Assembly: GCF_009739465.1 (NCBI RefSeq)
Contig: NZ_WHOM01000078.1
Span: 352,133-416,132, forward strand
Length of the DNA stretch: 64,000 nt
DNA from: Streptomyces apocyni
GTDB taxonomy: Bacteria > Actinomycetota > Actinomycetes > Streptomycetales > Streptomycetaceae
Direction: 5' to 3'
Shown here: piece by piece, positions 7,037-61,926 of the stretch
Layout of the letters: each line of letters begins with the position of its first letter
How positions within the stretch are numbered: position 1 is the first letter of the stretch
Notes under the pieces: model-generated
Database searches by the model: none
What the model was told of the DNA's origin: nothing
The model's input: only the letters and a program-made list of their open reading frames with translations
Translations under genes and position numbers: made by a program

Positions 7037-7231
7037 GGGCATCCCTGAAGATACGTAGTTAAACCTGGATCTCAGCATCCGCGCACATCGGCCATCTCCT
7101 GGCATTAGCCCAGCCCAGAGGCGTTTCAGGCATGGTTAGACTTGCCAAGGGTGTGCGAGGTGAAGACCCCTCAGGGACCACTATGGGTCGAACCGACGCA
7201 AGGCGAAATGCTCAACGGGGAGGGGACCTCG

Positions 7232-42693: not shown

Positions 42694-43191
42694 TTATCGA
42701 GCCGCCGAACGAGAAGACCTGCGGTAAAGGACACCGCCACCGGCCAGCAGCGCCACACCGGCCGCCGCGGCGCCGACGACACGCGGGTCGGTGCCCGTCG
42801 CTGCCAGCTCGGTCTCCTCGGGCGCCTTGGGCGCGGGCACCGCCTTCTCGGGCACCGCCTTCTCGGGAGCGGCCGGCGGGGGCGACTGCGGCTTGGGCTC
42901 CGTCGGCGGGACCGGGGGCTGGTCGTCCCCGTAGCCACGCTCCGTTTCCTCGGATGTCGAGGTGTTGGCACAGGTGTTCCCGAAAGCTGGGTTCAGCGCG
43001 GCGGCGCCGTCGGCGGTGTTGCCGCAGGCGTTGACCGGCACGTCGACGGGAGCCTCCAGGCTGTTGCCTGACAGGATGCCCGGCGAGTCGGAGGCCCCGC
43101 CCTCGACATGGGAGTCAGCGAAGGCCTGGGCTCCCATGCCCAAGCCCATGACCACACCGGCGACCAGCGTCGCACTCTTCTTCAGAGCCAC
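42694..43191 (-). CDS. Long, sortase-anchored chaplin with a single chaplin domain
   Basis: A 165-aa protein from GTG 43191 (AGGAG upstream). The signal peptide ends AFA before DSHVEG. One chaplin domain follows (SDSPGILSGNSLEAPVDVPV, Cys in NACGNT and NTCANT). Then comes a Pro/Lys/Glu spacer (EKAVPEKAVPAPK), a LAATG sorting signal, a membrane helix and an Arg-rich end (YRRSSRSAAR). Class E sortases cleave LAXTG, and three are encoded at 18-22 kb. The known long chaplins (ChpA-C) carry two chaplin domains, so this one is shortened. Confidence 0.92.
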   Translation of the reverse strand: MALKKSATLVAGVVMGLGMGAQAFADSHVEGGASDSPGILSGNSLEAPVDVPVNACGNTADGAAALNPAFGNTCANTSTSEETERGYGDDQPPVPPTEPKPQSPPPAAPEKAVPEKAVPAPKAPEETELAATGTDPRVVGAAAAGVALLAGGGVLYRRSSRSAAR

Positions 43192-43237
43192 TTTCCGTCT
43201 CCTTCAAGTCCTTCAAGAACGGGCGAGTAACGAAAAA

Positions 43238-43277
43238 GCTCGGGCTGCCAGCGCTGAAGCAGGCGGGCAGCCCGAGC
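43238..43277 (-). terminator. Terminator of the minus-strand rodlin
   Basis: GCTCGGGCTGCC and GGCAGCCCGAGC form a perfect 12-bp stem beyond the rodlin stop. Confidence 0.88.
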
Positions 43278-43297
43278 CGTTGGTGTCCCAGCTGGTA

Positions 43298-43708
43298 TCA
43301 GCTGTTGCCGGCGCCGTTGCCGGACAGGATCGCGAGGTCGTCCAGGATGTGCGACAGCGGCTCGTCACCCTTGGCCTGGGTGGAGTTCTCGACACACTGC
43401 TGGTTCTGCGGCGACGACAGGACGTTGATGTCCTGCACGGTGACCGGCACGACGCCGACGATCGAACCGGCGTTGCCCTTGATCGGCAGGCCGATGCAGG
43501 GCTTGTTCAGGGAGCCCTGGACGAGGCCGAGCTGCGGGCTCATGTCGCCGTACGTTTCCTGGTTGCCGAACGCCTGCTTGGCGCCGTTGCCACTGGCGGA
43601 CGTCGTGCCACCGTCATCGCTGATGGCCAGCGCGGGCGCGGCGGCCGCGGCCGAAACGCCAACGACGGACGCGGCTACTGCCGCCGCTGCCATTGCCTTC
43701 TTGAGCAT
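43298..43708 (-). CDS. Rodlin
   Basis: A 136-aa secreted rodlin from ATG 43708. The signal peptide (about 28 residues) ends ALA before ISDDGGT. The mature part has [20 protein letters not shown], Cys in NKPCIGLP and NQQCVENS, and ends [19 protein letters not shown]. Rodlins arrange chaplin fibrils into rodlets on spores. It is divergent from a second rodlin gene with a 197-bp shared promoter region, like the S. coelicolor rdlA/rdlB pair. Confidence 0.95.
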
Positions 43709-43905
43709 TCTGATTCCTTTTCTGACTCTGACGCACGCCGGTTGCTGCCCACTGCCAACTGGCCACGGGAGAAATAGTTCTGGCCCTTCACCCGGACGCA
43801 GCAATCCGAAACGCCCCGTCTGGGTGAACCCCGACAACCAACTCGCCGATGCGGAGTTGTGCAGGGAGCTCCCACGGCGGGAGTCCAACGAAAGGGAAAT
43901 CTCTC

Positions 43906-44316
43906 ATGATGAAGAAGGTCCTGGCGGCTGCCGCTGTCACCGCGTCCGTTGCCGGTATGACGGCTGCCGCCGCGGTGCCCGCGATGGCTATCAGCAACGA
44001 CGGCGGCACGACCTCCCACAGCGGGAACGGTGCCATGCAGGCGTACGGCAACCAGGCCACCTACGGCGACATGAGCCCGCAGATGGCACTGATCCAGGGC
44101 TCCCTCAACAAGCCCTGCGTCGGGCTGCCCGCCAAGCTCAACGTCGGTTCGATCGTCGGCGTCGTGCCGGTCACCGTGCAGGACATCAACGTCCTGTCGT
44201 CGCCGCAGAACCAGCAGTGTGTCGAGAACTCCACCCAGGCCAAGGGTGACGAGCCGCTGTCGCACATCCTGGACGACATCGCGCTCCTGTCCGGCAACGG
44301 AGCCGGCAACAGCTGA
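43906..44316 (+). CDS. Rodlin
   Basis: A 136-aa rodlin, very like its divergent neighbour, with AAAGGG nine bases before ATG 43906 (a second ATG follows at once). Signal peptide ends AMA before [26 protein letters not shown], two Cys and the same [20 protein letters not shown] block are present. Duplication of a rodlin gene is evident. Confidence 0.95.
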   Translation: MMKKVLAAAAVTASVAGMTAAAAVPAMAISNDGGTTSHSGNGAMQAYGNQATYGDMSPQMALIQGSLNKPCVGLPAKLNVGSIVGVVPVTVQDINVLSSPQNQQCVENSTQAKGDEPLSHILDDIALLSGNGAGNS

Positions 44317-44340
44317 GTCGTCTGCCCACATGTGGCGTCC

Positions 44341-44376
44341 GCCCCAGCGAGCCGGTGTCGCGCGCTCGGCTGGGGC
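44341..44376 (+). terminator. Terminator of the plus-strand rodlin
   Basis: GCCCCAG with CTGGGGC and an inner CGAGC/GCTCG pairing form the hairpin. Confidence 0.75.
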
Positions 44377-44509
44377 GATGACGCCGATCTGATTCCCTCT
44401 TTATGGCGAAAGAGTTGTTCTCGCGCGCCATGCCATTGACGGCCTGACCGGGCAAATAGGCGGGTCTATCTTCTCGGCACCAACGTCCCTGGGCAGTGGA
44501 GCGCGCCAC

Positions 44510-45625
44510 ATGAAGAAGAAGACCCCTTCGCCCCGAACGCGTCACCAGAGAAAAGCCGCCGCATTCTCCGCGGCCGCACTCGGCGTGGTGCTGACAGCCA
44601 CCGCGGCGGCCGTCGGACCCGGTGCCGTGGCGCTGCCGTACGACGTCCAACGCGTCGATGTCTTCAGCTCCTTCGACACCAGGGACGACCGCCCGGACGA
44701 CGGGCCGGGGACGAACGTCCTCCTGATGGGTACGGACGGCCGGGACACCATCACCCGCGAGGAGAAGCAGAAGTTCTACGCGGGCGGCATCGCCTGCGAC
44801 TGCTCCGACACACTGATGCTGATCCATGTGTCCGAGAGCCAGGACCACGTCAGTGTCGTCAGCCTTCCCCGCGACTCCTACGCGGACATCCCGGCCCACC
44901 GCGACAAGCACACCGGCGAACCGCGCGCCGCACACCCCGCCAAGATCAACGCGGCGTACGCGGAGGGCGGGCCCGCGCTGGCCGTCCGTACGGTGGAGGA
45001 GATGACCGGCGTACGGATCGACCGCTATCTGCAGATCGACTTCCGGCGCTTCATGGACAGCGTCGACGCCGTCGACGGAGTGGACGTCTGCACCCCGCGG
45101 CAGCTGAACGACCCCGCCACGAAGCTGGACCTGAGCCCCGGTACGCACCGGCTCGGCGGCGGGCCCGCGCTCCAGTACGTACGGTCGCGCAAGGTCGACA
45201 CCGCCGCTGACCTGGGGCGGGTTCAGCGGCAGCAGCAGTTCCTGGTCGGCGTACTGGACCGGCTGAGCGGCAGCCAGATCATGGCTGATCCGTTCACAGC
45301 GGACGAGCTGGCGCGGACGGTGCTCGGCTCGACCCAGGTCGACCAGGGGTTCACGGTCTCCGAGCTGGTGTCGCTGACCTGGAGCCTGAGTCAGCTCCCC
45401 GCCTCGCGGACCGAGTTCGCCACCGTGCCGATCGGCGGGTTCAACCCGCCGCTGGAGGGGGTGGGGTCCACGCTGCGCTGGGACCAGGACCGGGCCCGGG
45501 ACCTCTTCGGCAAGCTCAACGCGGACCTGCCGCTGACGCCCCGGAACTCCACGGCACGGCCGCTTGATCCGCCGCTGATCGACGTCCAGTACCCGGTGCG
45601 CGGCGACACGTTCACCTGCTCATAG
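44510..45625 (+). CDS. LytR-CpsA-Psr (LCP) family glycopolymer transferase
   Basis: A 371-aa protein with a basic N-terminus and one membrane segment (AAALGVVLTATAAAVGPGAV). The LCP domain has NVLLMGTDGRD, VVSLPRDSYADI, KINAAYAEGG and a QYVRSRKVDTAADLGRVQRQ block. LCP proteins attach polyprenyl-linked glycopolymers to peptidoglycan. Its place between rodlin genes and near the EPS operon suggests it anchors the polymer to the wall; this is inference. Confidence 0.92.
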   Translation: MKKKTPSPRTRHQRKAAAFSAAALGVVLTATAAAVGPGAVALPYDVQRVDVFSSFDTRDDRPDDGPGTNVLLMGTDGRDTITREEKQKFYAGGIACDCSDTLMLIHVSESQDHVSVVSLPRDSYADIPAHRDKHTGEPRAAHPAKINAAYAEGGPALAVRTVEEMTGVRIDRYLQIDFRRFMDSVDAVDGVDVCTPRQLNDPATKLDLSPGTHRLGGGPALQYVRSRKVDTAADLGRVQRQQQFLVGVLDRLSGSQIMADPFTADELARTVLGSTQVDQGFTVSELVSLTWSLSQLPASRTEFATVPIGGFNPPLEGVGSTLRWDQDRARDLFGKLNADLPLTPRNSTARPLDPPLIDVQYPVRGDTFTCS

Positions 45626-45726
45626 GCCTGTTAGGCCGAACGGGTTGCGGTCCGCAACTCGCCGCGCCCCACCCAGTTGACCAGTCGCGGCTCCTGATCG
45701 GAGCCTGCTCATTGAAGGGAACTCGA

Positions 45727-46137
45727 ATGAAGAAGCTGTGGGCAACCGCAACGATCGCCGCATCCGTCGCTGGCATGGCCGCGGTGACCGCCCCTCAGGC
45801 CCTGGCCATCAGCGATGACGGTGGTACGACGTCCGCCAGCGGCAACAAGGCCAAGCAGGCGTTCGGCAACCAGGCCACGCACGGCGACATGAGCCCGCAG
45901 CTCGGAGCCGTCCAGGGGTCCCTGAACAAGCTCTGCGTCGGTCTGCCCGCCAAGGCCAACGCCGGTTCGATCGTCGGCATCCTCGTTCCGGTCACCGTCC
46001 AGGACATCAACGTCCTGTCGTCGCCGCAGAACCAGCAGTGTGCCGAGAACTCCACCCAGGCCAAGGGTGACGAGCCGCTGTCGCACATCCTGAGCGACAT
46101 CGCGGCGCTCTCCGGCAACGGCGTCGCCAACGGCTGA
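45727..46137 (+). CDS. Third rodlin
   Basis: A 136-aa rodlin from ATG 45727 with GAAGGGA upstream. Signal peptide ends ALA before [26 protein letters not shown] and two Cys are conserved. It differs from the pair by one inserted residue in SIVGILVPVTVQD, and the end reads SGNGVANG. It lies downstream of the LCP gene in the same direction, 101 bp apart. Confidence 0.94.
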   Translation: MKKLWATATIAASVAGMAAVTAPQALAISDDGGTTSASGNKAKQAFGNQATHGDMSPQLGAVQGSLNKLCVGLPAKANAGSIVGILVPVTVQDINVLSSPQNQQCAENSTQAKGDEPLSHILSDIAALSGNGVANG

Positions 46138-46566: not shown

Positions 46567-47781
46567 TCAAGGCCGGGAACGCCTTTGGACCGTTCGGGCG
46601 AGCCGGGGGCCCAGCCACTGCTTCAGGCCCCGCAGGACGGTCAGCTGGTTGGCGGCCTGGTCGATCCGGTAGTACAGCTGCGGTGGGACGTAGGGGAGCA
46701 GCGGTGAGTGGCGCTGGCCGAGCAGCGCGAACATCCGGGGCGGCGCCAGGCCGATGTACCGGGTCAGGTTCTCGTACCACTGGGCGCTGTGCCGGGCCGC
46801 GCTCTGGACGGAGAGCAGGGCCGACTTGCGCTCCGTCTCGTACTGGGCGAGTGCGCGCTCAAGGCCCGCCGTCCCGGGTGCCTCGTGGAGTACGCGGGCC
46901 AGGGTCATGGCGTCCTGCATGGCGAGGGTGGTTCCGGCGCCGATGGAGTAGTGGGTGGTGTGCGCGGCGTCGCCCATGAGGACCAGATCGCCGTGCGACC
47001 AGGTCTGGTTGGTGAGGGTACGGAAGGTCACCCAGGGGGCCGGGCCGGTGACATCGCCACGGCCGATCAGCGGGTGGCCGTCGAGCAACGCGCCGAAGAT
47101 CTTCTCGAGTTGGCGCAAGGCGTCGTCCTGGCTCATCTCGTGCAGGCCGAGGCCGGAGTACGTGGCGGGGGAGCACTCGACGACGCAGGTGCTCCGCTCG
47201 TCGCTGAACCCGTACGCGTAGCACCAGATCCAGCCGTGGGCGGTCTCGACGAAGGCGAAGGTGAACGACGTGAACACCTTGGTCGTGCCGAGCCAGACAT
47301 AGTGGTTGCGCCCGCTGACGGTGTGGGTGCCGAAGTGCTGGGCGGCGCTCTCGCGCAAGCGGCTGCCCGCGCCGTCCGCGGCCACGACGAGGTCGTTGCC
47401 TGGCAGCTGGTCTCTGTCGGTGATCTCCTGCCCGTACCGGATGTCCACGCCCAGCGAGGTGGCGCGCTCGGCGAGGATGGCCAGGAGCCGGTGCCGCCCG
47501 ATGGCGAAGCCCTCGTCGCCGTGGTGCACCGTGGTCTGGTCGCCCACCAGCGCCACGCCGTCGTGCCAGCGCACCGAGTTCTCCCTGATGGTGGCCGCGG
47601 ACTCGGGGTCGTGCTCGTGCAGCTTGTCCAGCATGTCGGGCCAGTACGTCACCCCCCAGCCGTAGGTGGCCCCGGCCGGGTTCCGCTCGTAGACGGTGAT
47701 GTCGTGCGACGAGGCGTGTCGCTTGAGCAGGATGGAAAAGTACAGCGCGGCGGGGCCTCCGCCGACGCAGGCGACCTTCAC
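46567..47781 (-). CDS. FAD-dependent aromatic monooxygenase (anthraniloyl-CoA monooxygenase-like)
   Basis: A 404-aa flavoprotein from GTG 47781 (GGGAG five bases upstream; GTG 47787 is an alternative). The FAD-binding loop is ACVGGGPAALYFS, followed by VYERNPAGATYGWGV, the VVAADGAGSRLR DG-motif and LMGDAAHTTHYSIGAG. By eye the N-terminus is closest to anthraniloyl-CoA and salicylyl-CoA monooxygenases, but the CoA-enzyme's second half is absent. It should hydroxylate an aromatic ring, here likely a tryptophan-, kynurenine- or prenyl-derived substrate. Confidence 0.8.
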   Translation of the reverse strand: MKVACVGGGPAALYFSILLKRHASSHDITVYERNPAGATYGWGVTYWPDMLDKLHEHDPESAATIRENSVRWHDGVALVGDQTTVHHGDEGFAIGRHRLLAILAERATSLGVDIRYGQEITDRDQLPGNDLVVAADGAGSRLRESAAQHFGTHTVSGRNHYVWLGTTKVFTSFTFAFVETAHGWIWCYAYGFSDERSTCVVECSPATYSGLGLHEMSQDDALRQLEKIFGALLDGHPLIGRGDVTGPAPWVTFRTLTNQTWSHGDLVLMGDAAHTTHYSIGAGTTLAMQDAMTLARVLHEAPGTAGLERALAQYETERKSALLSVQSAARHSAQWYENLTRYIGLAPPRMFALLGQRHSPLLPYVPPQLYYRIDQAANQLTVLRGLKQWLGPRLARTVQRRSRP

Positions 47782-47924
47782 ACTCACTCCCGCGGTCTTG
47801 GGTGTCGCTGGGCGTCGATGACCGGTCGGGACATGGCCGACGGCCACTCAAGCAACGACGGCGGGGCTGATTGGTAGCGCGGGACTAGCCCGGGACCAGC
47901 CCGGGGCCAGCCCGGGGCCAGCCT

Positions 47925-49013
47925 CTACGCGACCGTCGTGCTGCCCAGTGGAGCCTCGGCGGGGGTGAGCAGCTGCGTCTGGCGCAGCACCTCGCCGGAG
48001 AGGGCCCGCAGGCCCGCGAGCACGCCCGGGTCGCACGGGCCGCTGTCCGGCAGGTCATCCAGGACGTCGGTGGCTTCGGCGATATACGTTCCCGCCACCG
48101 CGTACGCGCGGTCCACCGCCCCACAGGCACGGACGCGCTCCGACACCTGCGCGGAAAGCCGCGGGTCCATCTGCTCGGTGAGGAGTTCCGCCAGGGACGG
48201 GTCTTTCTCCAGCGCGTAGATCAAGGGAAGGGAATAGGTTCCCTCCAGTACGTCACTACCGGTCGACTTTCCGAGAAGGACCGGATCGGCGACAAAGTCG
48301 AGAATGTCGTCGCAGATCTGGAACGCCATTCCCAGAGACTCGCCGAATTGCGCGAATCGGTCCACGAAGTGGGCGTCGTAATCGCTGAGCTGGGCGCCCA
48401 GGCGGCAGGCCAGGCTGATGAGTGAGGCGGTTTTCCCGTGGCTCGCCTGGAGATAGTTGTCCGTGGCCCGGGTGGTGTCGAAACGGAACCGGATCTCCAG
48501 GGACTGGCCCGCGCACATCCGCTCGTACGTCCGCAGTGTGGCGGTGTGGGCCCGCTCGCCCAGGGTCGCGCTCTGCGCGAAGGCCCGCATGGTCAGGATG
48601 TTGCCCGCCAGGATGGCCTGGCTGTCGCCCCACTTGGCGTTGGCGCTCGGCTGGCCGCGGCGTACCAGGGCACCGTCCATGACGTCGTCGTGGTAGAGCG
48701 AGCCGGTGTGCAGGAGTTCGACCACCGCGCCCGCGCCGGCGACCGAGACGGGGATCTCGGTGCCGGGGTGGCGCAGATACCACGGCGCGAACGCGAGAAT
48801 CGGCCGCAGCTGTTTCCCGCGCACCTTTATGTAATACCCCTGAATCTCGTCCAGGTGGGGGTGTTCATTTCCCGATTCGGCGGTGAGGATGTGCCCCATG
48901 CGTCCCATGTCGATATCGAGCGGCTGCCCCGCGAAGAAGCCTGTGATGTCGATGATGCACCTCCGCACAGCCGTGAAGTTCCCCGTTGCGGCCGCAGGAT
49001 TTCCATGGTTCAT
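47925..49013 (-). CDS. Trans-polyprenyl diphosphate synthase
   Basis: A 362-aa prenyl synthase. The first Asp-rich motif DDVMD is at 109-113 and the second DDILD at 235-239. KVRGKQLRP binds the allylic substrate. Residues four and five before the first motif are Ser and Gly (small), which in this family tends to permit longer products than FPP, but chain length cannot be fixed by reading. It supplies the prenyl donor for the nearby UbiA-type enzyme. It is divergent from the P450 with a 57-bp gap. Confidence 0.88.
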   Translation of the reverse strand: MNHGNPAAATGNFTAVRRCIIDITGFFAGQPLDIDMGRMGHILTAESGNEHPHLDEIQGYYIKVRGKQLRPILAFAPWYLRHPGTEIPVSVAGAGAVVELLHTGSLYHDDVMDGALVRRGQPSANAKWGDSQAILAGNILTMRAFAQSATLGERAHTATLRTYERMCAGQSLEIRFRFDTTRATDNYLQASHGKTASLISLACRLGAQLSDYDAHFVDRFAQFGESLGMAFQICDDILDFVADPVLLGKSTGSDVLEGTYSLPLIYALEKDPSLAELLTEQMDPRLSAQVSERVRACGAVDRAYAVAGTYIAEATDVLDDLPDSGPCDPGVLAGLRALSGEVLRQTQLLTPAEAPLGSTTVA

Positions 49014-49070
49014 TGGACTGCGTTGTGGGGGGTTTGAATTCCAGGACCTGCGCCGAAGGGGATATTAGGC

Positions 49071-50507
49071 ATGCGGGAGCAAGAGCAGACAGCTCTTTGT
49101 CCGGAAAATGTAATGGCGAGCGGGCCCGGGCGGGAGGAATGTCAGCAAGAGGACAGCGGCGGCGGAGTCGTGGAGCCGCGCCGCGCGGTGCTCCCTGGCG
49201 TGCTCGAGCCGGTCCGGCTGATCCGGCGTGAGGGGCTGCTGGGCCTGGTGGACCGGCTGCGGGGCGAGGGCGATCTGGTGCGGTTCCGCCTCGGCCAGCT
49301 GCCGTGCCACGCCCTGTTCCACCCCGAGGCCGCCCAGCACGTACTGCGCCACCACGCGGACCGCTACACCAAGGCCGGGCACCCCGCGTACAAGCCCTTC
49401 CTCCGGATGGCACCGGCCGGCCTGCTCACCTCGACCGGAGCGGACTGGCGGCGCCGCCGCCGTGCCGTGCAGCCCGCCTTCCACGACTCCACGCTGGGCG
49501 CCCTCGCCGACGAGGTGGCCGAGGTCGCCGAGGAGACGGCGGAGCGCTGGGACCGGATGGCGGACCGCCGGGAGCCGTTCGACGTGATGGAGGAGATGAT
49601 CCGGGTCACCCTCGCCGTCATCACCCGTTCCGTCATCGGCCGCCAGACCCCGCAGCGGCTGGTCGACGCCATCAGCGGCGACTTCCGGCTGTTGCAGTAC
49701 GAAGTGATCCGCCGCGCGTCGCGGATGCGTCTGCTGCCGCCCGTACTGCCCTGGGGCAAGGACCGCGCCTTCCAGCGAGCCTCGGCCCGGCTGCGCCTGA
49801 ACTCCCAGGACATCCTGCGGAGTTACGGCGCGGACCCGGAAGCACCGCCCCTGCTCGACCTGTTGCGCCGGGCCATGGCCGACGAAGCGGGTCTGAGCGC
49901 CGAGGAGGCGGGGGACCAGATCCTGACGATGCTGTTCGGCGGGCACGAGACGACGGCCTCGGTGCTCGCGTGGCTGTGGCTGCTCCTGGACGAACACCCG
50001 GACGCCGAGCGGCGGATGCACCAGGAACTCGACGCGTGGACCGGAGACCCGCGCGCCACGGACGGACTGGCCTGGACCGGGAACGTGATCGACGAGGCGC
50101 TCCGGCTCTACCCGCCGGTCTTCATCCTGCCCCGGATGGCCGCCCAGGACGACGTGGTGCTCGGCCACGAGATACGGGCCGGGTCCTCGGTGTGGGTGGT
50201 GCCGTACGGCATCCACCGCAACCCCGCTGTCTGGTCCGACCCCGACGCCTTCCGGCCCGAGCGCTTCCAGGAGGGCATGTCGGCCGCTCACCGTAACGCC
50301 CTCTATCTGCCGTTCTCGCTTGGCAGCCGCCAGTGCATCGGCACCGCCTTCGCCGTCACCGAGATGAAGATCCTGGTGGCCGCTCTGGCGAGCAGGTTCC
50401 GTATCCGGCGGCTGCCTGACACGCGGGTCGGCGTGGACGCCACCGTCACGCTGCGGCCGCGCGGGGCCCGCTGCGTCATCGAGCGCCGCGGTGAGCAGAC
50501 GCGATGA
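49071..50507 (+). CDS. Cytochrome P450
   Basis: A 478-aa P450. The I-helix motif FGGHETTA, ExxR in DEALRLYPP and haem loop FSLGSRQCIGTAFA (Cys422) are all present. ATG 49071 has AAGGGG ten bases upstream; in-frame ATG 49113 is an alternative. By length and GGHETT it resembles fatty-acid/terpene-oxidising P450s. Co-transcribed with the UbiA-type gene, it probably oxidises the prenyl or aromatic part of the product. Confidence 0.9.
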   Translation: MREQEQTALCPENVMASGPGREECQQEDSGGGVVEPRRAVLPGVLEPVRLIRREGLLGLVDRLRGEGDLVRFRLGQLPCHALFHPEAAQHVLRHHADRYTKAGHPAYKPFLRMAPAGLLTSTGADWRRRRRAVQPAFHDSTLGALADEVAEVAEETAERWDRMADRREPFDVMEEMIRVTLAVITRSVIGRQTPQRLVDAISGDFRLLQYEVIRRASRMRLLPPVLPWGKDRAFQRASARLRLNSQDILRSYGADPEAPPLLDLLRRAMADEAGLSAEEAGDQILTMLFGGHETTASVLAWLWLLLDEHPDAERRMHQELDAWTGDPRATDGLAWTGNVIDEALRLYPPVFILPRMAAQDDVVLGHEIRAGSSVWVVPYGIHRNPAVWSDPDAFRPERFQEGMSAAHRNALYLPFSLGSRQCIGTAFAVTEMKILVAALASRFRIRRLPDTRVGVDATVTLRPRGARCVIERRGEQTR

Positions 50508-50518
50508 GGAGAGCTGAG

Positions 50519-51490
50519 ATGACGACTGCCATCGGCTCGAAGTCGGGCAAAACCCGCGGAAACGTCCGGGGCAAGGTCCGGAACAAGGTCCGGGTCTTCA
50601 TGGAGCTGGGCAAGCTCCGCGTCGTGGAGATGTGGCTGGGCGCCCCTCTCGCGTGGTCCCTGTGGGACCGCGACTTCGCCTTCTCCGGCCGTGGCCTGGC
50701 GCTCCTCGTCCTGGCCGTGGTCACCGCCATCGGCATCTCGGCGGCCGCCCTCGCGCTCGACGACGTGACGGGCGCGACCGACGGTCTGGACGAGAACAAC
50801 CACGGCGGCGGGCACCGCGCGGCGGTACGCAAACCCCTGCTCGACGGCACCATCAGCCTCCGCGAGGCCCGCGTCTTCGCTGGCGTCTGCGCCACGGTGG
50901 GCCTGGCCGCGCTGGTCACCGCCGTACTGATCGCGCCGCATCGGCCCTGGTGGATGATCGCGCTCACCCTCGGCGGGGTGTTCCTCGCGCTCAACTACTC
51001 GTACTTCCTCAAGCTGAGCTACGTCGGTGGCGGTGAGGTCGTCACGCTGGTCGCCACCGCGCTGGTGATGCTCTTCCCGTATGGGCTCGCCACGGGTGAG
51101 CTGACCTTGGTGGTGGTCGCCCAGGCGCTGCTGATCGGGGTGTGGGAGCTCCAGACCGCGACGTACGCCAACTGCCTGGACAGGGTGGGGGACGCCAGGT
51201 TCGGACGGCTGACCTGGCCCGCCCGGCTCCCCTGGAAGGGCATCGCCCGGATGCACATCGGGCTGTACGCGGTCGCCACGGTGCTGCTCGTGCTGGCCGT
51301 GGTGGGGACCGAGCGGGCCTGGTTGCTCGGCTTGCTCGCGCTGCCGCTGCTGGTCACGCAGGTTCAGCAGGCCCGCAAGGGGCTCGGGGAGCGGGACTTC
51401 GGTTCGGCGCGCGCCCTCGGTTTCCGGGTCTTCCGGTTCGGATTCGGGGCGCTGATGGTGAACAACCTGGCGATGATGGCGGTGGGGTGA
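50519..51490 (+). CDS. UbiA-superfamily prenyltransferase (or terpene cyclase)
   Basis: A 323-aa membrane protein with about eight hydrophobic helices. ATG 50519 is favoured by AGGAG upstream; an ATG overlapping the P450 stop (50504) is also open. The Asp-rich site D81-D82...D88...D91 (LDDVTGATDGLD) and the second motif D221...D225 (CLDRVGDARFGR) bind prenyl diphosphate with Mg2+. UbiA members prenylate aromatic rings, and some cyclise prenyl chains. With the prenyl synthase next door the first use is most likely. Its TGA abuts the stop of the decarboxylase on the other strand. Confidence 0.88.
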   Translation: MTTAIGSKSGKTRGNVRGKVRNKVRVFMELGKLRVVEMWLGAPLAWSLWDRDFAFSGRGLALLVLAVVTAIGISAAALALDDVTGATDGLDENNHGGGHRAAVRKPLLDGTISLREARVFAGVCATVGLAALVTAVLIAPHRPWWMIALTLGGVFLALNYSYFLKLSYVGGGEVVTLVATALVMLFPYGLATGELTLVVVAQALLIGVWELQTATYANCLDRVGDARFGRLTWPARLPWKGIARMHIGLYAVATVLLVLAVVGTERAWLLGLLALPLLVTQVQQARKGLGERDFGSARALGFRVFRFGFGALMVNNLAMMAVG

Positions 51491-52933
51491 TCAGACGGAC
51501 GGGGATGGGGGGCAGGTCGCCAGCTCACGGATGATCGTCCAGGCGGACGCGATGTGCTCCCTGTCGATGGTGGTCGCTCCGATGGCGAAGCGGATCGCCA
51601 GCCGCCCGCTGACCCGGGTCTGGGAGACGAAGATCCGGCCGTCCGCGGTGAGCGACTCCAGAAGCCGCTCGGTGCGCTCGTCGTCGCCGCGCACGCGGAA
51701 GCAGACCAGCGACAGCGGGTGCGGCGCCATGACCTCGAAGCGTTCGTCGGCCCGTACCCACGCGGCGAACTCCTGGGCCAGCGCGACGTGATGACGTACG
51801 TGGGCCCGCACGCCCTCGGCCCCGTACCAGCGCAGCACGGCCCACAGCTTGAGCGCCCGGAAGGTGCGCCCCAGGGGTACCTGCCAGTCGCGGTAGTCCA
51901 CGACCTGCCCTGACTCGGTGGCCTTGTTCCGCAGGAAGGCGGGCAGGATCGACAGCGCCTCGATGACCGCGGCACGGTCCGCCACCCACAGGGTGCTGGA
52001 ACCGACCGTGGTCAGCATCCACTTGTGCGGGTTGGTGCAGTACGAGTCCGCGTACTCCGCCACGCCCTCGTGGATCCAGCGGAACTCGGGGCAGACGGCG
52101 GCGACCCCGGCGAACGCCGCGTCGATATGCAGCCAGATGCCGAACTCGCGGCACAGGGCGCCGATGTCGAGCACCGGGTCGATGGCGGTCGTCGAGGTCG
52201 AGCCCACGGTCGCCATCACCATCACGGGGACCACGCCCTCGCGGACGTCCGCCTCGATCAGCTCCCGTAGGTGCGCCGGGTCCATCGCGAGGGTCTTCGG
52301 GTCGGTGCGCACCGAGCGCATGGCGGACTCTCCGAGCCCGGCCACCCGGACGTTCTTCTCCAGGGCGGAGTGCGCCTGGTCGGAGCCGTACACGGCGAAC
52401 CGGCCCGACACTCCCTCGGCGCGCGCCCTGCCGCCCGTCACCCGGTTCAGGGCGGCGAGCAGGGCGACGAGGACGGCGCTGGACGCGGTGTCCTGGATGA
52501 CTCCGCCGCCCGGGCCGCCGGAGCGGAACCGCTCGGGCAGGTCGAGGAGTTCGGCCATCCAGTCCAGTACGTGCTCTTCCAGCTCGGTGGCCGCCGGGCT
52601 GGCCCACCACATCATGCCGACGACGTTGAGGCCACCGGTCAGCAGGTCGCCGAGTATGGCGGGGCCGGACGCGTTGGCGGGGAAGAATCCGAAGAAGCCG
52701 GGGTGCTGCCAGTGCGTGATGCCCGGCAGGATGACGTCGTTGAGGTCGCTGAGGAGGTTCTCGAACGGCTCGCCCTGCTCGGGCGGGTGCGCTGGGAGCG
52801 CGGCGCGGAACTCGCCGGGTTCTGCCTGGGACACCACCGGCCGGTCGGCGACGTTCGCGAGGTAGTCGGCGATCCAGTCGACGGCGGCGTAGCCGTGCGC
52901 GCGGAACTCGTCGGGTGTCATATGGGCGTTCAC
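51491..52933 (-). CDS. PLP-dependent aromatic amino acid decarboxylase
   Basis: A 480-aa group II decarboxylase. The PLP Lys304 is in NPHKWML, His187 in SDQAHSA stacks on the ring, and Asp271 in HIDAAFAG holds the pyridine N. MMWWASPAATELE is typical of tryptophan/DOPA decarboxylases. GTG 52933 overlaps the stop of the dioxygenase-like gene (GTGA). Likely substrates are tryptophan, a hydroxytryptophan or kynurenine. Confidence 0.88.
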   Translation of the reverse strand: MNAHMTPDEFRAHGYAAVDWIADYLANVADRPVVSQAEPGEFRAALPAHPPEQGEPFENLLSDLNDVILPGITHWQHPGFFGFFPANASGPAILGDLLTGGLNVVGMMWWASPAATELEEHVLDWMAELLDLPERFRSGGPGGGVIQDTASSAVLVALLAALNRVTGGRARAEGVSGRFAVYGSDQAHSALEKNVRVAGLGESAMRSVRTDPKTLAMDPAHLRELIEADVREGVVPVMVMATVGSTSTTAIDPVLDIGALCREFGIWLHIDAAFAGVAAVCPEFRWIHEGVAEYADSYCTNPHKWMLTTVGSSTLWVADRAAVIEALSILPAFLRNKATESGQVVDYRDWQVPLGRTFRALKLWAVLRWYGAEGVRAHVRHHVALAQEFAAWVRADERFEVMAPHPLSLVCFRVRGDDERTERLLESLTADGRIFVSQTRVSGRLAIRFAIGATTIDREHIASAWTIIRELATCPPSPSV

Positions 52934-54282
52934 GACGGCTCCTTGGGATCCTTGAGGTCCTTGAGGCCCTTGAGGTCCTTGGGGAAGACCTTGTTGTCCA
53001 TGACCGAGCGCAGATAGGCCACGCCGTCGGTGTTCCCGCTGCCGGGCTCGTCGCCGATCATGCGGGTGGCGATCCTCAGATGGGTCCGCTTCCACTGTTG
53101 GTGCGTCTCGTCGACCTCGACGAGGGCGGCGCGCAGCTCTGGGTCTGCCGCGGCCTCGGCCTCGGCCGACACGACGTCATCGACCAGCCCGGTGCCACGG
53201 TGTGCCACCAGCTCCCTGACCCGTGGCACGGAGGCGTACGCCAACGAGCCCATGCGGTCCTCGTCAGGCCGGGCGAACAGTGCCTCGAAGGCCTTGTAAC
53301 CCTCAGACTGGATCGCGCTCGAACCCAGCGTGTAGCCACGGAACTTGAGGAACGCCTCGGCCCGCATGGTCGCCTGCAGCGAGAACAGCTGCCGGTTCTC
53401 GCGCAGCGTCGAGGCGCACCCGCGCATCAGCTCCGTAGCCTCGGGTATCCGACCGCGCCGGACGGCGTCCCCGGCTTCGGCGGTGGCCGCCGCGAGCTCC
53501 ATGAAGACCAGCTCGTACGCCTGCAGGGTACGGATGAACAGGTACTCGTCGTCGACGACGTAGACCGGCAACAGGCTCATGTCGACGCGCTGGCGCCGCT
53601 CTTCGGGAAAGATCCGCCAGATCTCCTCAGCCAGGGCGCGGGCTCCCGGCAGGTCATCGGTGCGGTCATCCACCAACGCCTGCGCCCGCTTGCTGAGTTC
53701 GGCGGCTTCTGGCAGTGAGGCGGAGACGGCCACCCGGTTCAGGGCCGGGCACAGCAGGCGCAGGGCGAGGCGTGCGCGCTTGGCCGAGAGGCCGACCGGC
53801 GGAACCATCAGACGGGGCGGCTCAGCGCCCTCTCGTGGTCGGCACTCATGGCGTACGAGATCGGCCATGAGCAAGATCAACAGCTCGTCACAGCCCGACC
53901 CGGGACCAGACCCGGGCCGCGTCACGCGCTGCGGCGGTCGGGCGTCGGTGAGCAGCGGCAGACCCAGGTAGCTGCGATACGAGTAGGTGTCGTCCAGCTT
54001 GTCGAGGGCGCAGTCGAGGAACCGCGGCAGCGGCGAGTCCGCGTCCTGGGCGACGCTGGCCGCGCGGGCGGCGTCCAGGGCCTGGAGCAGCGACAGCGGA
54101 ACGAAGTGCTTCCCGAAGGAGTGGAAGCAGCCGAGCACCTCCGCCACCGGAAACGGTCCCTCCGGGAGCTTCGCCCAGTCCAGCAGCCGGTCGTGCAGCT
54201 CGGCCACTGCTTCGGAGAGAATGCCTGGCAGAACACGGACCTGGGCACTGTCCTGAGCTGCGCCGTCACGCACGGCGTACAT
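52930..54282 (-). CDS. Divergent tryptophan-dioxygenase superfamily protein, distal His replaced
   Basis: A 450-aa protein, much longer than TDO. The last 200 residues carry TDO landmarks: LQAYELVFMEL (252-262) for HQxYELWFK, FRGYTLGSSAIQSEGYKAFE (314-333) for FRxxxGxxSxxQFRxxE, and WKRTHLRIATRMIG (397-410) with the haem-ligand His401. The distal His is Leu253 and the substrate-carboxylate Arg is Lys330. The first 230 residues are an unfamiliar helical domain. The tail is a Lys/Asp repeat (KGLKDLKDPKEPS) from short DNA repeats. MarE shows that TDO relatives can catalyse other tryptophan oxidations; the reaction here is unknown. Confidence 0.72.
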   Translation of the reverse strand: MYAVRDGAAQDSAQVRVLPGILSEAVAELHDRLLDWAKLPEGPFPVAEVLGCFHSFGKHFVPLSLLQALDAARAASVAQDADSPLPRFLDCALDKLDDTYSYRSYLGLPLLTDARPPQRVTRPGSGPGSGCDELLILLMADLVRHECRPREGAEPPRLMVPPVGLSAKRARLALRLLCPALNRVAVSASLPEAAELSKRAQALVDDRTDDLPGARALAEEIWRIFPEERRQRVDMSLLPVYVVDDEYLFIRTLQAYELVFMELAAATAEAGDAVRRGRIPEATELMRGCASTLRENRQLFSLQATMRAEAFLKFRGYTLGSSAIQSEGYKAFEALFARPDEDRMGSLAYASVPRVRELVAHRGTGLVDDVVSAEAEAAADPELRAALVEVDETHQQWKRTHLRIATRMIGDEPGSGNTDGVAYLRSVMDNKVFPKDLKGLKDLKDPKEPS

Positions 54283-54348
54283 GGTTGCCTCTCATCGTCA
54301 GATTCACAGGCGTCTCAGCCATCACAGCCATCACAGGCGTCACGGGCG

Positions 54349-55077
54349 TCACAGATAGGCGCGGATTTCCCACAGCTCCGGGAAGAACCGCTTCTCGGTA
54401 GTGCCCCTGAGGTAGTCGACCCCGCTCGAGCCGCCCGTGCCGTGCTTGCGACCGATGATGCGTTCCACCACCACCGCGTGGGCACTGCGCCAGCGGGCGA
54501 ACCTGCTGTCATGGTCGAGGAGTTGGTCGATGAGCCGGAGGACCACCGGGTCGGTGGACTCGTCGCTCGTGGTGGCGACCAGGTCCGTCGTGCCCCGGCG
54601 CTCGCAGAAGTCGTTGAAGGCATCCCGCAGCGACGGCTCGTCCAGGCGGCGGCGCAGTCGTTCGCGGTCGCGCGGGTCGAAGCGGATGTTCTCCAGGTAC
54701 GAGGGGTCCTTGAGGCCGGACAGAAACTCGATCTCGCGGAACTGGACCGACTCCAGACCGCTGGAGCTCCCCAGACCGTCGCGTACGCGCTTGAACCGCG
54801 CGGGGCTCAAGGTCTCGAGCGCGGGCAACTGCGCGAGCAGCACGTCCTCGGCAGCTCCGACCCGCCGCAGCCAGTACGCGGCACTGTCGGCGTCGTCCGC
54901 CGCCAGCGCGTCTCGGGTGCTCTCCAGCGCCTGAACGATGACCTTGAACCAGATTTCGTACGACTGATGAATCGCGACGAAGAAGAGGGCGTCAGGCTCC
55001 CCACCGATGTCGTCCTGCAAGCCGAGCAGTTCCCGCAGTCGGAGAAAGTCGCTGTACGTCACCTTCGCCGCGCTCAC
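54349..55077 (-). CDS. Tryptophan 2,3-dioxygenase
   Basis: A 242-aa haem dioxygenase that converts tryptophan to N-formylkynurenine. Distal His37 is in VAIHQSYEIWFK, substrate Arg114 in SVQFREIE, the haem ligand His200 in WRSAHAVVVERIIG, and GTGGSSGVDYL closes the site. The start is GTG 55077. It heads the minus-strand set TDO, TDO-like, decarboxylase. Without a kynureninase or formamidase in view, the fate of the product is open. Confidence 0.92.
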   Translation of the reverse strand: MSAAKVTYSDFLRLRELLGLQDDIGGEPDALFFVAIHQSYEIWFKVIVQALESTRDALAADDADSAAYWLRRVGAAEDVLLAQLPALETLSPARFKRVRDGLGSSSGLESVQFREIEFLSGLKDPSYLENIRFDPRDRERLRRRLDEPSLRDAFNDFCERRGTTDLVATTSDESTDPVVLRLIDQLLDHDSRFARWRSAHAVVVERIIGRKHGTGGSSGVDYLRGTTEKRFFPELWEIRAYL

Positions 55078-55908: not shown

Positions 55909-58023
55909 ATGATGACCGCCATGACGGACGAGATGGACCTGGGGGCGGCAGCGGCGGAATTCGACCGGACCACCGCGGCGGAGGCCGAGAAAGCCGCAGA
56001 GGACGAACGCAAGCAGGTGCTCTCGCAGTTTCCCCTGGAGCAGTGGGTGACGCTGCCGCTGTCTCGGTATGCCCTGGGACAGACCGCGCAGTCCGGGAGC
56101 GGGCCAACGTACTGTCGGCTGATCGAGTTCGGTACACCGAACCTCGGCAGCATCAAGGGCGGCAGCGCGGCGAAGCACATCATGTACCACCACAACTCCG
56201 GCGAGTGGCGGATAGCCGCACCGCTGCGTGGGATGGAGCCGCAGGAGTCGTGGGAGGAACTGCGCGGACAGTTCGTGCGGGCCTTCGAAGCCGTGGCCGC
56301 GGGGGACTTCGAGGCCGTGAACGATCTGGAAGCGCTGCGCTACGGGCAGACCCTGGTGACCAAGTCGCTGGCCACTTACTTCCCCGAGCACTTCCTGCCT
56401 ATCTACGCCGGCGAGCACCTGCGCAAGTTCGTCACGCTGCTGGACGGCGCCGCTGAGAGCGACGCACCCGCCTGGGACAGTAACCGCAGACTGCTGGAAC
56501 TCGTACGATCCCGTGCGGAGTTCGACGGCTGGAGCGGGCAGGAAGTCATGCACTTCCTGTACGAGAGGTTCGATCCGCGCCCGCAGCAGCGCACCATCTG
56601 GAAAATCGCCCCCGGTGAACGAGGACGGCTGTGGGACGCGTGCCGTGACGGCGGGGTAATCCGCGTGGGGTGGGACGAGCTCGGCGACTTCGGCCAGTAC
56701 CAGAGCGACACCGAGCTGAAGCAGGCCCTCGACGCACACTGGCCGCGCAGCAGCGGCGGCAGCCTGACGCTCGCCCGACGGCTGCTGGCCTTCCGGGACC
56801 TGGAGGCGGGAGACCGGATCGTCGCTAACCGCGGGATGGACGAGGTCCTGGCCACGGGCACCGTCAACGGGAGCTACCGCTTCGACGCCGACCACTCCGA
56901 GTACCGGCATGTCGTCCCGGTGTCCTGGGACGTCTCCCACGCGCGGAAACTGTCGAAGCCCCAGCACGGCTGGCGGTCCACGTTCGCCAAGGTGCAGCCA
57001 GCGCTCATGGCTTGGATCACCGCGGGCCTCGCCGAGTCGGATACAGAGCCGGCGGGAACGCACGCCGGTAGCCCCGGCACGCTGCCCGAGGATGTCGCGG
57101 GCGTGCTGGAGGCACTGGAGCGCAAGGGGCAGGTGATCCTGCACGGGCCGCCCGGTACGGGCAAGACCCGGCTGGCACTCGGTACCGCCCTCGCCCTCGC
57201 CGGTCGTGCGGACGCGCTCAACTCCACGTCGGCCCGGCGGTCTACGGCCCAGGCCGAGATGCTGCGGAACGGCCGCATCCGCATGGTGACCTTCCACCCG
57301 TCCTACGGCTACGAGGACTTCGTGGAAGGCTTCAAGCCGGACCTGAGCGCCACGGGCCCCGGGCTGACCCTGGCGCTCACCGACGGCGTGTTCCACACCC
57401 TGTGCGCCCAGGCCGCCGCTCGTCCGGACGAGACCTTCCTACTGATCATCGACGAGATCAACCGGGGCGATCTGCCGCGGATCTTCGGCGAGTTGGTCAC
57501 CCTTCTCGAACTCGACAAGCGCGGCCTGCCCCTCGCCCTGTCCGTCAGCAGGCGCACCTTCTCCGTGCCGTCGAACGTGCGGATCATCGGCACCATGAAC
57601 ACGGCGGACCGCAGCATCAGCCATCTGGACGCCGCCGTACGCCGCCGCTTCGCCTTCCTCCCGCTCGGCCCTGACCCGGACGCCGTGTCCGGCACCGTCG
57701 GCCCCCTGGAACTGGCAGAGTTCTTCGAGTCCCTGAACACCCGCATCGCCCGGCATCTCGACGCCGACCACCAGATAGGGCACGCCTACCTGCTACGCAA
57801 CGGCGAGCCGATCGCCACCGAGGACGACCTGGCCGCCGCCTTCCACCACGAAGTGATCCCGCTCCTGGAGGACTACTGCCTCGGCCGCGCCGACCTGCTG
57901 CACCGCATCCTCGGCGGGCTGGTCGACGCGGACACCGGGCGTCCCGCGCTGATGTCACCGCAGGACCTCGCCGCCGCACTCGCGACCGAGTTCACCAGCG
58001 GCACGCCGGGACCCGATGCCTGA
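55909..58023 (+). CDS. mcrB: McrB-type AAA+ GTPase with EVE-like reader domain
   Basis: A 704-aa subunit of a type IV (modification-dependent) restriction system. Residues about 228-345 look like an EVE/PUA-fold domain (IWKIAPGERGRLWDACRDGG, GDRIVANRG, ATGTVNGSYRF) that could read modified cytosine or another modified base. The AAA+ motor has Walker A GPPGTGKT (413-420), Walker B LLIIDEIN and the McrB hallmark GTMNTADRSI. The first 220 residues are an added helical region. The start is uncertain among several ATGs at the beginning. It overlaps mcrC by eight bases. Confidence 0.92.
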   Translation: MMTAMTDEMDLGAAAAEFDRTTAAEAEKAAEDERKQVLSQFPLEQWVTLPLSRYALGQTAQSGSGPTYCRLIEFGTPNLGSIKGGSAAKHIMYHHNSGEWRIAAPLRGMEPQESWEELRGQFVRAFEAVAAGDFEAVNDLEALRYGQTLVTKSLATYFPEHFLPIYAGEHLRKFVTLLDGAAESDAPAWDSNRRLLELVRSRAEFDGWSGQEVMHFLYERFDPRPQQRTIWKIAPGERGRLWDACRDGGVIRVGWDELGDFGQYQSDTELKQALDAHWPRSSGGSLTLARRLLAFRDLEAGDRIVANRGMDEVLATGTVNGSYRFDADHSEYRHVVPVSWDVSHARKLSKPQHGWRSTFAKVQPALMAWITAGLAESDTEPAGTHAGSPGTLPEDVAGVLEALERKGQVILHGPPGTGKTRLALGTALALAGRADALNSTSARRSTAQAEMLRNGRIRMVTFHPSYGYEDFVEGFKPDLSATGPGLTLALTDGVFHTLCAQAAARPDETFLLIIDEINRGDLPRIFGELVTLLELDKRGLPLALSVSRRTFSVPSNVRIIGTMNTADRSISHLDAAVRRRFAFLPLGPDPDAVSGTVGPLELAEFFESLNTRIARHLDADHQIGHAYLLRNGEPIATEDDLAAAFHHEVIPLLEDYCLGRADLLHRILGGLVDADTGRPALMSPQDLAAALATEFTSGTPGPDA

Positions 58024-59272
58024 CCGCACCGAGGTCAGGCTCGCAGAGTACGGTTCCGCTCTGCTCGGGGCGGAGCAGCTCACGCCCCGGGACGTCGAGC
58101 GGCTGCGCGGCCTCCATACACGCGGCCGCCTCAGCCTGGACCAGGCCCGGTCCGGGTGGCGGCTCAGGGCCGACGCGACCGTGGGCATCCTGGTGCTCGA
58201 CCGCATCCGTCTGGTCATCGAGCCCAAGTTCGCCATCCCGGGCGAGCAGCTCATGCGCTGGCTCGCCTACGCCCTGGGCGCGCCGGCACCGCTCCCGGCG
58301 ACGGCGCGGCGCTGGGCCACCGGCCCGGATGGCTACGCCGACCTCGTGGCCGCGGCCCTGCTGGAGCAGTGCGAGCAACTGGTCCGGGAGGGGCTGCGCC
58401 GAGACTACGTACGCCGTCAGAGCCTGGAACCCGTCCTGCGAGGACGCCTCGACGTCGCGGCCCAGGTCTCCCGGCGCTACGGGCAACTCGATCAACTGCA
58501 TGTCCGCGCCTTCGACCAGGAGGCGGACATCTGGGACAACCGCGTCCTGGGGACCGCGCTGCGGGTGGCCCGCGCCCTGGCCACACGTCCCGACCTGGTC
58601 CGCGACCTCCACGCCATCGCCGACGCGTTCCCCCAGGCCCCCACCCCCGACGCGGCGCTCCGCACCCTGGACCGCACCCGGTACACACGCCTGAACGCCC
58701 GCTACCGCACAGCGCACACCTGGGCCCGCCTGCTGCTAAGCGGCGGAGGCGTGACCGACCTCCTCACCGACGACGGCATGACGGCGGACGGCCTCCTGCT
58801 GGCCATGCCCGCCCTCTGGGAGGCCGTCGTCCGGCGTCTGGCCACCGAGGCCGCCGCCCCACACGGCGGGCACACCGTCCCCAGCAGCGGCGCGACGGGC
58901 ATCACCGTCCGGGGCGATCTCGGCAGCACCTCGACCTTCCGGCCCGACGTGCTGCTCAGCCTTCCGGGGCGTGCCCCGTCCGCGCGCACACTGCTGCCGG
59001 TGGACGCCAAGTACAAGCGCTACGACCGTTACGGCGTCGGTGCCGGCGATGTCCACCAGCTCCTCACCTACAGCGCCGGCTACACCCCGAATACCGACTT
59101 GCGGGCAGTGATCGTCCACCCATGTCCCGGCGGGCACTCCCACCGAGTCCTCCAGGTCAGTGGGCCGCGGGGCTCGCTCGGAAGCATCCACGTCCTGGGC
59201 GTCGACACCCTCGCGGCCCCGGAGCAGGCAGCCGTGTGGATCAGGTCGGTAGCGCCCTGGGGCGACTGGTGA
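58016..59272 (+). CDS. mcrC: McrC-type nuclease subunit
   Basis: A 418-aa protein. The N-terminus is an McrC-type McrB-binding region (GILVLDRIRLVIEPKF). The PD-(D/E)xK nuclease residues are Asp311 in FRPDVLL, Asp330 and Lys332 in PVDAKYKRY, followed by DVHQLLTYSAGY. With McrB it should cut DNA carrying modified bases from phage or foreign sources. Length and order match known McrBC pairs. Confidence 0.92.
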   Translation: MPDRTEVRLAEYGSALLGAEQLTPRDVERLRGLHTRGRLSLDQARSGWRLRADATVGILVLDRIRLVIEPKFAIPGEQLMRWLAYALGAPAPLPATARRWATGPDGYADLVAAALLEQCEQLVREGLRRDYVRRQSLEPVLRGRLDVAAQVSRRYGQLDQLHVRAFDQEADIWDNRVLGTALRVARALATRPDLVRDLHAIADAFPQAPTPDAALRTLDRTRYTRLNARYRTAHTWARLLLSGGGVTDLLTDDGMTADGLLLAMPALWEAVVRRLATEAAAPHGGHTVPSSGATGITVRGDLGSTSTFRPDVLLSLPGRAPSARTLLPVDAKYKRYDRYGVGAGDVHQLLTYSAGYTPNTDLRAVIVHPCPGGHSHRVLQVSGPRGSLGSIHVLGVDTLAAPEQAAVWIRSVAPWGDW

Positions 59273-61767: not shown

Positions 61768-61926
61768 TCTGTGCGTCCTTGTGCAAGTGGTGCTGAACAT
61801 GGGAAAGCGCCAGGTAGGGGGCTACATGATCGTAAAGGTCTCTATCCAGGAGCAATCACGACCCCGCAGAGGCTTGGCCATGGGCCGATTGATGTAATGT
61901 GAACCCTTTGTTCTTCGTCTGCGAGG

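Follow-up and report, generated by a model that had tools for sequence, protein, structure and literature searches.

The stretch of DNA analyzed here, referred to as the window, covers 64,000 nucleotides of the Streptomyces apocyni genome (assembly GCF_009739465.1, contig NZ_WHOM01000078.1, positions 352,133 to 416,132), which comprises 7.03 Mb in 78 contigs. An initial annotation had pointed to seven genes between window positions 46567 and 55077 as a candidate pathway combining tryptophan oxidation, decarboxylation and prenylation. The seven genes were found at or near the positions first assigned to them, and the coordinates together with Pfam and NCBIfam searches confirmed their families (FAD_binding_3, polyprenyl_synt, p450, UbiA, Pyridoxal_deC and Trp_dioxygenase twice) as well as the arrangement in three compact groups (Table 1). 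A FAD monooxygenase gene (FMO) and a polyprenyl diphosphate synthase gene (PPS) are separated by a 77-base gap on the minus strand. The stop codon of the cytochrome P450 gene overlaps the start codon of the UbiA gene (ATGA) on the plus strand. Two genes of the tryptophan 2,3-dioxygenase (TDO) family, TDO1 and TDO2, lie on the minus strand with 66 bases between them and are followed by a gene for a pyridoxal phosphate (PLP) enzyme of the aromatic amino acid decarboxylase (AADC) fold. TDO2 and AADC overlap by GTGA, provided that AADC starts at GTG 52933, which is likelier than the program-called start at 53095, judged to be too early. The converging UbiA and AADC genes have no bases between them. 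Short direct repeats were seen by eye in the TDO1-TDO2 spacer (54283-54348), in the FMO-PPS spacer (47848-47924) and at the 3' end of TDO2 (52930-52985), where KDLK-type codons are repeated.

Table 1. Genes of the cluster, with window positions and the matches behind each assignment.
Gene	Position	Strand	Supporting match
FMO, FAD monooxygenase of salicylyl-CoA 5-hydroxylase / VioD type	46567..47847	-	NF006101, VioD models; PDB VioD
PPS, polyprenyl diphosphate synthase	47925..49013	-	PF00348 2e-59
Cytochrome P450	49071..50507	+	PF00067 6e-66
UbiA-family membrane protein, 328 aa, likely prenyltransferase	50504..51490	+	PF01040 1e-18
AADC-fold PLP enzyme, 480 aa from GTG 52933, predicted aromatic aldehyde synthase	51491..52933	-	PF00282 1e-104
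TDO2, TDO-like catalytic part with an extra N-terminal helical part	52930..54282	-	PF03301 1.9e-19
TDO1, short tryptophan 2,3-dioxygenase, 242 aa, GTG start	54349..55077	-	PF03301 1e-45

Six of the seven genes recur in Streptomyces sp. 13-12-16 in identical order and orientation, with protein identities of 68-89% (PPS 73%, P450 85%, UbiA 78%, AADC 89%, TDO2 68-70%, TDO1 83%), and this recurrence is more than chance. The pairwise dN/dS values were 0.26 for PPS, 0.16 for P450, 0.18 for UbiA, 0.12 for AADC, 0.34 for TDO2 and 0.15 for TDO1, a range (0.12-0.34) indicative of purifying selection on the six genes of the block. The FMO is absent from the 13-12-16 block, and the nearest match that the genome offers, on another contig, has 42% identity. 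The initial annotation had made its proposal depend on the genes being conserved together, which held for six genes and not for the FMO; the co-conserved unit is the six genes without the FMO, seen in one independent genome. The 13-12-16 block (locus L038) also has a UbiD-type gene inserted between UbiA and AADC (L038:7227-8729) and a 1-deoxy-D-xylulose 5-phosphate (DXP) synthase gene, DXS, beyond PPS (L038:344-2269). The rest of its 41-kb contig matches the window weakly (28-36%), through a second PPS, a second UbiA (35%) and two relatives of the window gene at 7142-8218. Farther along this contig (L071:2530-10025) are the second polyprenyl synthase, IspH (LytB), the second UbiA, a methyltransferase and an AMP-ligase. 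Since UbiA relatives in other Streptomyces (L123-L126) adjoin similar DXS, LytB (IspH), methyltransferase and PPS genes, this second region may be a separate cluster.

The close relatives of the block are few. TDO2 matched 34 of 392 genus genomes at E 1e-10 or better (its own genome is included in this and the next count); 22 of these reached E 1e-20 or better across the greater part of the protein, and in the remaining 12 mostly the C-terminal TDO part was matched. Besides its own genome there was one close relative, 13-12-16, and the next best match was 47% identical. A scan of the GTDB contig collection, which can miss relatives because it is built on two short peptide patterns, returned 26 distinct loci, one of them close (68%) and the others at 43% or below; the close matches of both searches are one and the same contig of 13-12-16. 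Among 100 relatives, nine matched TDO2 (own included), the other eight at 38-42%. UbiA matches were found in 56 of 392 genus genomes and 10 of 394 class genomes (own included in each), at 40% identity or below outside 13-12-16. At E 1e-6, neither TDO1 nor TDO2 had a relative in any of 20 UbiA neighborhoods (19 of 20 kb and one of 4 kb), while two of them (L121 and L122) held a weak AADC relative (31%). No FMO match at E 1e-6 was obtained in any fetched locus of the UbiA and TDO2 sets. In the search for a wider family, the gene set was not seen together outside the window genome and 13-12-16. The open-licence literature likewise yielded no described cluster with this gene set, in line with the initial annotation, which knew of no named one; such an absence is weak evidence.

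TDO1 resembles TDO. Its Pfam score was 157 against a cut-off of 34.9 (PF03301), and it scored 195 bits against TIGR03036, whose equivalog cut-off is 390.7. In a phmmer search of the PDB, TDO chains matched down to 3e-36, and MarE was not among the matches up to E 1. In the alignment with the X. campestris enzyme, TDO1 has residues equivalent to Phe51, His55, Arg117, Thr254 and the heme-binding His240 (the titles of 3bk9 and 3e08 give His55 by this number; the other numbers are presumed). The distal His, the substrate Arg, the GTGGS loop and the proximal His of that enzyme are all kept. The match of TDO1 to TDO falls into two segments, and where the two align TDO1 has 24 residues fewer than the X. 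campestris enzyme; MarE is also described as being without two middle helices of TDO (PMC11904535). In the 2-oxindole monooxygenase MarE, DATG and SLGGR loops replace the PASG and GTGGS loops of TDO (PMC11904535), whereas TDO1 has SSSG and GTGGS. TDO1 is thus expected to cleave L-Trp, or Trp still bearing its carboxyl group; since it keeps the substrate-carboxylate Arg and both the distal and proximal His, it should act on the amino acid, before decarboxylation. A separate TDO adjoins a kynureninase elsewhere in the genome (L155; contig C61, 124000-142000), and the TDOs of the cluster are therefore extra.

Both proteins belong to Trp_dioxygenase, as the initial annotation had it in calling them TDO-superfamily members, but the two differ in kind: in the residues checked TDO1 is like TDO, and TDO2 represents a distinct family. 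The catalytic part of TDO2 matches TDO weakly, and a long stretch separates it from the first TDO-like segment in the alignment. TDO2 keeps the substrate Arg (Arg315) and the proximal, heme-ligand His (His401), but has Leu253 in place of the distal His of TDO; all three residues are invariant in 22 aligned sequences, window included, and two more distant relatives have Ile at the distal position. A structural model of TDO2 built from the 22 sequences had a mean pLDDT of 83.5 and a pTM of 0.86. Foldseek ranked TDO first (E 1.4e-4). The C-terminal half superposed on TDO with a Z score of 17.4 (3.9 Å over 217 residues), and nearly the whole chain (43-440) on PrnB with a Z score of 17.2 (3.8 Å over 268 residues); IDO was slightly lower, with a Z score of about 16 (about 4 Å over about 270 residues). 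TDO and PrnB are tied as fold matches of the model, and a common fold makes no statement on function. The modeled TDO2 has the fold of the heme-dependent aromatic oxygenase superfamily together with the proximal His, and heme binding is predicted. It shares these features with TDO, MarE, PrnB and IDO, and matches PrnB and IDO over nearly its full length; unlike this group, it combines the distal Leu with a TDO-like catalytic sequence and the long intervening stretch. No description or role of the TDO2 family was found in the open-licence literature.

Of 42 non-redundant TDO2 loci, 22 have another TDO-like gene no more than 3 kb away; 13-12-16 is one of these, and the window is not. Ten of these partner genes were strong matches and 12 were weak (E 2e-12 to 4e-16). 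Nine of the 22 had served as seeds of the partner profile and 13 had not, and the count was again 22 of 42 when a contaminating TDO2 fragment (L048) was left out of the profile; a second match in L099, set aside by the overlap filter, is uncounted. The partner in 13-12-16 carries the TDO residues, whereas eight other strong partners that were inspected are without the GTGGS loop. The weak partners are distant, and one of them (L039:10704-11582) had no Pfam match at E 1e-5. The loci with a partner are L038-L046, L048, L068-L070, L076-L078, L080, L081, L083, L085, L086 and L097. Some TDO2 relatives occur in nonribosomal peptide synthetase clusters (Streptomyces sp. NBC_01006 plasmid; L039), and others adjoin a class V aminotransferase-type gene or sit elsewhere. 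Our reading of these neighborhoods is that a small TDO-like protein may often work alongside TDO2, either in a complex with it or at a successive step. IadDE was considered as a precedent for an indole-oxidizing enzyme pair and was rejected; it is described as a Rieske oxygenase (preprint PMC12633357) and is therefore no precedent for two heme TDOs.

The AADC-fold enzyme matched 6eei best in the PDB (1e-139), an entry named tyrosine decarboxylase 1 which we take to be AtPAAS. Its catalytic loop reads PAFLRNK in the window and PAFLRNR in 13-12-16, with Phe in place of Tyr, and the 6eei loop (PEFLKNK) likewise has Phe, whereas 6liu, 6eem, 8x0o and 6eew have Tyr (PEYLKNK or PEYLRNK in decarboxylases). 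The small-loop His is kept. In the segment WQVPLGRTF, the Gly is common to 6eew and 6eei and is replaced by Ser in 6eem; Gly at this position favors indolic substrates. The entries 6eem and 6eew are PsTyDC and CrTDC, and a structure of AtPAAS is mentioned in the same source (PMC11308512). In plants, one Tyr/Phe exchange is enough to convert decarboxylase and aldehyde synthase into each other, and mammalian dopa decarboxylase and human histidine decarboxylase became acetaldehyde synthases when their Tyr was changed to Phe (PMC11308512). Among 11 other homologs, Tyr was found in eight (L141 at 62%, L144 to L149, and L151), Phe in L142 and L150, and Ile in L152. The two Phe-type homologs, from Embleya and another Streptomyces, are possible further aldehyde synthases; in L142, Asn replaces the small-loop His.

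The AADC-fold enzyme is thus predicted to be an aromatic aldehyde synthase, and the prediction is strong for one made from sequence. It has in common with the plant aromatic aldehyde synthases AtPAAS and Rr4HPAAS the AADC fold with Phe for the catalytic-loop Tyr, and differs from them in being bacterial and clustered with TDO genes. The product imagined at first was a prenylated, oxidized tryptamine or kynuramine, for which the enzyme would make the amine. The AADC family match and the presence of TDO and UbiA genes agree with such a product. In both clusters, however, Phe stands in place of the catalytic Tyr, and this substitution is reported to shift the reaction to aldehyde formation; simple decarboxylation is therefore unlikely, and we give the amine little credence.

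The remaining enzymes concern the prenyl chain and its oxidation. Motif I of UbiA is DDVTGATDGLD and motif II is DRVGD (DMVGD in 13-12-16), and the form DDxxGxxDGxD with DxxGD is common to all 23 aligned relatives. Motif II fits the prenyltransferase DxxxD, but motif I departs from the consensus NDxxDxxxD, and for this reason prenylation by the UbiA protein, part of the original proposal, is likely but not certain. The characterized prenyltransferase Mpz10 also departs from the motif I consensus, with NALADRWED (PMC4044012). Alternatively, UbiA could be a membrane terpene cyclase, with PPS, UbiA and P450 making an oxidized terpene and the Trp genes making a partner or a separate compound. Fungal UbiA-type terpene synthases carry NxxxG/AxxxD and QDxxDxxxD (PMC9835599), and the central Gly of the former is present in motif I of the window protein, though the full motif I and motif II of these fungal examples are not. 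The P450 would also suit a terpene, since it is nearest to terpene oxidases among the NCBIfam models (albaflavenone monooxygenase 212 bits, pentalenene oxygenase 171 bits, both below cut-off). With a prenyltransferase-like motif II, and with the Trp genes remaining in the block in both species, we regard the terpene cyclase as improbable. Small residues, Gly and Ser, occupy positions -5 and -4 before the first DDxxD of PPS, and small residues there go with a long chain. The nearest solved chain is a nonaprenyl diphosphate synthase, and together these features suggest that PPS makes a long prenyl chain. The FMO scored 375 bits against NF006101 (salicylyl-CoA 5-hydroxylase) and 178 bits against VioD, both below cut-off, with PDB VioD at 1.9e-37, which makes hydroxylation of an aromatic ring a fair guess.

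The proposal of a compact biosynthetic cluster that joins Trp oxidation, an AADC-fold PLP enzyme and a prenylation set is supported by the genes, their families, the six-gene block and the residue changes, all of which were observed by computation. The cluster probably makes some Trp-derived prenylated compound. As its structure we tentatively propose a Trp-derived polyprenylated 4-quinolone, aurachin-like but made by a route free of polyketide synthase (PKS); this is the product that we favor, at well short of even confidence, and we infer its reactions, their order and the chain length as follows. TDO1 would open the indole ring of L-Trp to give N-formylkynurenine. TDO2 would oxidize Trp or the same intermediate with the amino-acid part still on, possibly by ring hydroxylation. 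The AADC-fold enzyme would then decarboxylate and oxidatively deaminate a kynurenine-type amino acid to 2-aminobenzoyl-acetaldehyde, H2O2 and NH3, and the aldehyde would close non-enzymatically on the ring nitrogen to a 4-hydroxyquinoline/4-quinolone, or to a 3-substituted quinolone if the formyl group were retained. PPS would supply a long prenyl diphosphate for UbiA to attach, and the P450, with the FMO in this strain only, would oxidize the chain or the ring. Both TDO proteins were placed before the PLP enzyme because both keep the carboxylate-binding Arg, and the gene order TDO1-TDO2-AADC agrees with this placement. The aldehyde, 2-aminobenzoyl-acetaldehyde, is the intermediate between kynuramine and 4-hydroxyquinoline. 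Monoamine oxidase converts kynuramine into 4-hydroxyquinoline (PMC11269473), 4-quinolones are prenylated by UbiA-type enzymes in aurachin pathways (PMC10295502), and pathways to quinoxaline and 3-hydroxyquinaldic acid make use of TDO enzymes (PMC3578932).

Aurachin and zigralone are the nearest known systems in product type, the former by a PKS route and the latter by a thiamine diphosphate (TPP) enzyme route, and the quinomycin pathways are the nearest in TDO use. In the aurachin clusters (aua, rau, sau), a UbiA-type prenyltransferase acts on a 4-quinolone, as proposed here, with a prenyl diphosphate synthase in two of the three and P450s in two of the three; a prenyl synthase and a DXP synthase are listed for the Streptomyces cluster (PMC10295502), and the DXS gene near the 13-12-16 block was counted in favor of an aurachin-like product. 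The aurachin quinolone, however, comes from anthranilate by a type II PKS, in place of which there are two TDO-family genes and an aldehyde-synthase-type PLP enzyme here; no type II PKS with an anthranilate-activating enzyme was found among the Pfam-scanned genes of the cluster and its flanks, a scan that did not extend to the rest of the genome. Quinomycin-type clusters have a TDO of their own (Qui17 for echinomycin, TioF for thiocoraline), which opens a derivative of Trp toward quinoxaline or quinaldic acids; these products are acids for peptide assembly, and the available part of the source mentions neither prenylation nor a decarboxylase-fold enzyme (PMC3578932).

The zigralone cluster (zig) resembles the window cluster in giving a Trp-derived prenylated 4-quinolone and in having a polyprenyl synthase, a UbiA-like enzyme and P450s (PMC13307353). 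It differs in its ring expansion by a TPP enzyme, its Pyr4-like cyclase, methyltransferases and DUF6875 protein, and the zig gene list, as given in the part of the report available, holds no TDO and no AADC (PMC13307353). A similar order of steps can be imagined, in which UbiA prenylates the Trp indole first, TDO1 and TDO2 cleave the prenylated indole, so that a heme TDO pair replaces the ring-opening TPP enzyme ZigE, and an N-acyl ketone closes to a 2-alkyl-4-quinolone. Two TDO-family genes in the cluster would fit this order, but the pocket residues kept in TDO1 are those of an enzyme whose substrate is unmodified Trp, the aldehyde-synthase-type enzyme is left unexplained, and a Pfam scan of cluster and flanking genes, which did not take in every open reading frame, detected no TPP enzyme, methyltransferase or DUF6875. 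We consider prenylation before ring opening unlikely.

The UbiD-type gene within the 13-12-16 block, which is without the FMO, brings up a lipoquinone-like aminophenol. Here a Trp-derived aromatic acid would be prenylated by UbiA, decarboxylated by UbiD in one species and by the flavin monooxygenase in the other, and hydroxylated; the nonaprenyl synthase as nearest solved chain of PPS is compatible with such a product. The block, however, has no kynureninase to make the aromatic acid (one is present elsewhere in the genome), the AADC-fold enzyme would be without a role, and the window genome has its UbiD relative (64%) on a different contig, with one in-frame TGA in the matched stretch. A lipoquinone-like product is accordingly very improbable in our view. 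This UbiD relative is at positions 43663-45108 of contig C66 (L171).

Several points weigh against the polyprenylated quinolone itself. No kynurenine formamidase is present in the cluster, and TIGR03035, which covers one formamidase type only, was not found in the genome. The route leaves the role of TDO2 unexplained, and the UbiD-type gene of 13-12-16 is superfluous for a plain quinolone. Two of the eight AADC homologs at 47-54% identity also have Phe in the catalytic loop, and the AADC-fold enzyme could act on Trp itself to give indole-3-acetaldehyde. The departure of UbiA motif I from the consensus counts here as well. The block is supported by only one other genome, and within the stretches fetched none of the 41 other TDO2-family loci had a UbiA or AADC relative at E 1e-6.

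The flanking genes were also inspected. On the left, a chaplin (ChpA-C) gene and three small secreted repeat proteins are encoded at window positions 42694-46137, along with a LytR-type gene; the three small proteins are presumably similar to rodlins, and the one that was scanned had no Pfam match. On the right, an McrBC restriction pair (55909-59272) is located between the cluster and an AfsA-like gene, which with a divergent TetR-family regulator occupies 60859-62565, 5.8 kb from the cluster. The regulator was labeled as a butyrolactone-receptor type by its position. A quorum-signal link to the cluster was rejected, since nothing ties the AfsA-like/TetR pair to the cluster and the McrBC pair intervenes.

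Taken as a whole, the picture would be one of a Trp-to-quinolone conversion for which a ring-cleaving dioxygenase and a PLP aldehyde synthase suffice, followed by spontaneous closure and polyprenylation. TDO2 would belong to an undescribed family of heme oxygenases, with a catalytic half like that of TDO, a shape like that of IDO and PrnB and no distal His, and would act in actinobacterial peptide and alkaloid clusters together with a small TDO-like protein, either in a mixed complex or in two successive steps. That all of these parts hold jointly is doubtful. The paired TDO genes are a separate lead, since half of the TDO2 loci have a small TDO-like gene alongside. If the proposed pathway is true, it would provide a bacterial aldehyde synthase that is easily assayed and a short route, free of polyketide synthase, by which Trp becomes the quinolone core found in respiratory inhibitors.

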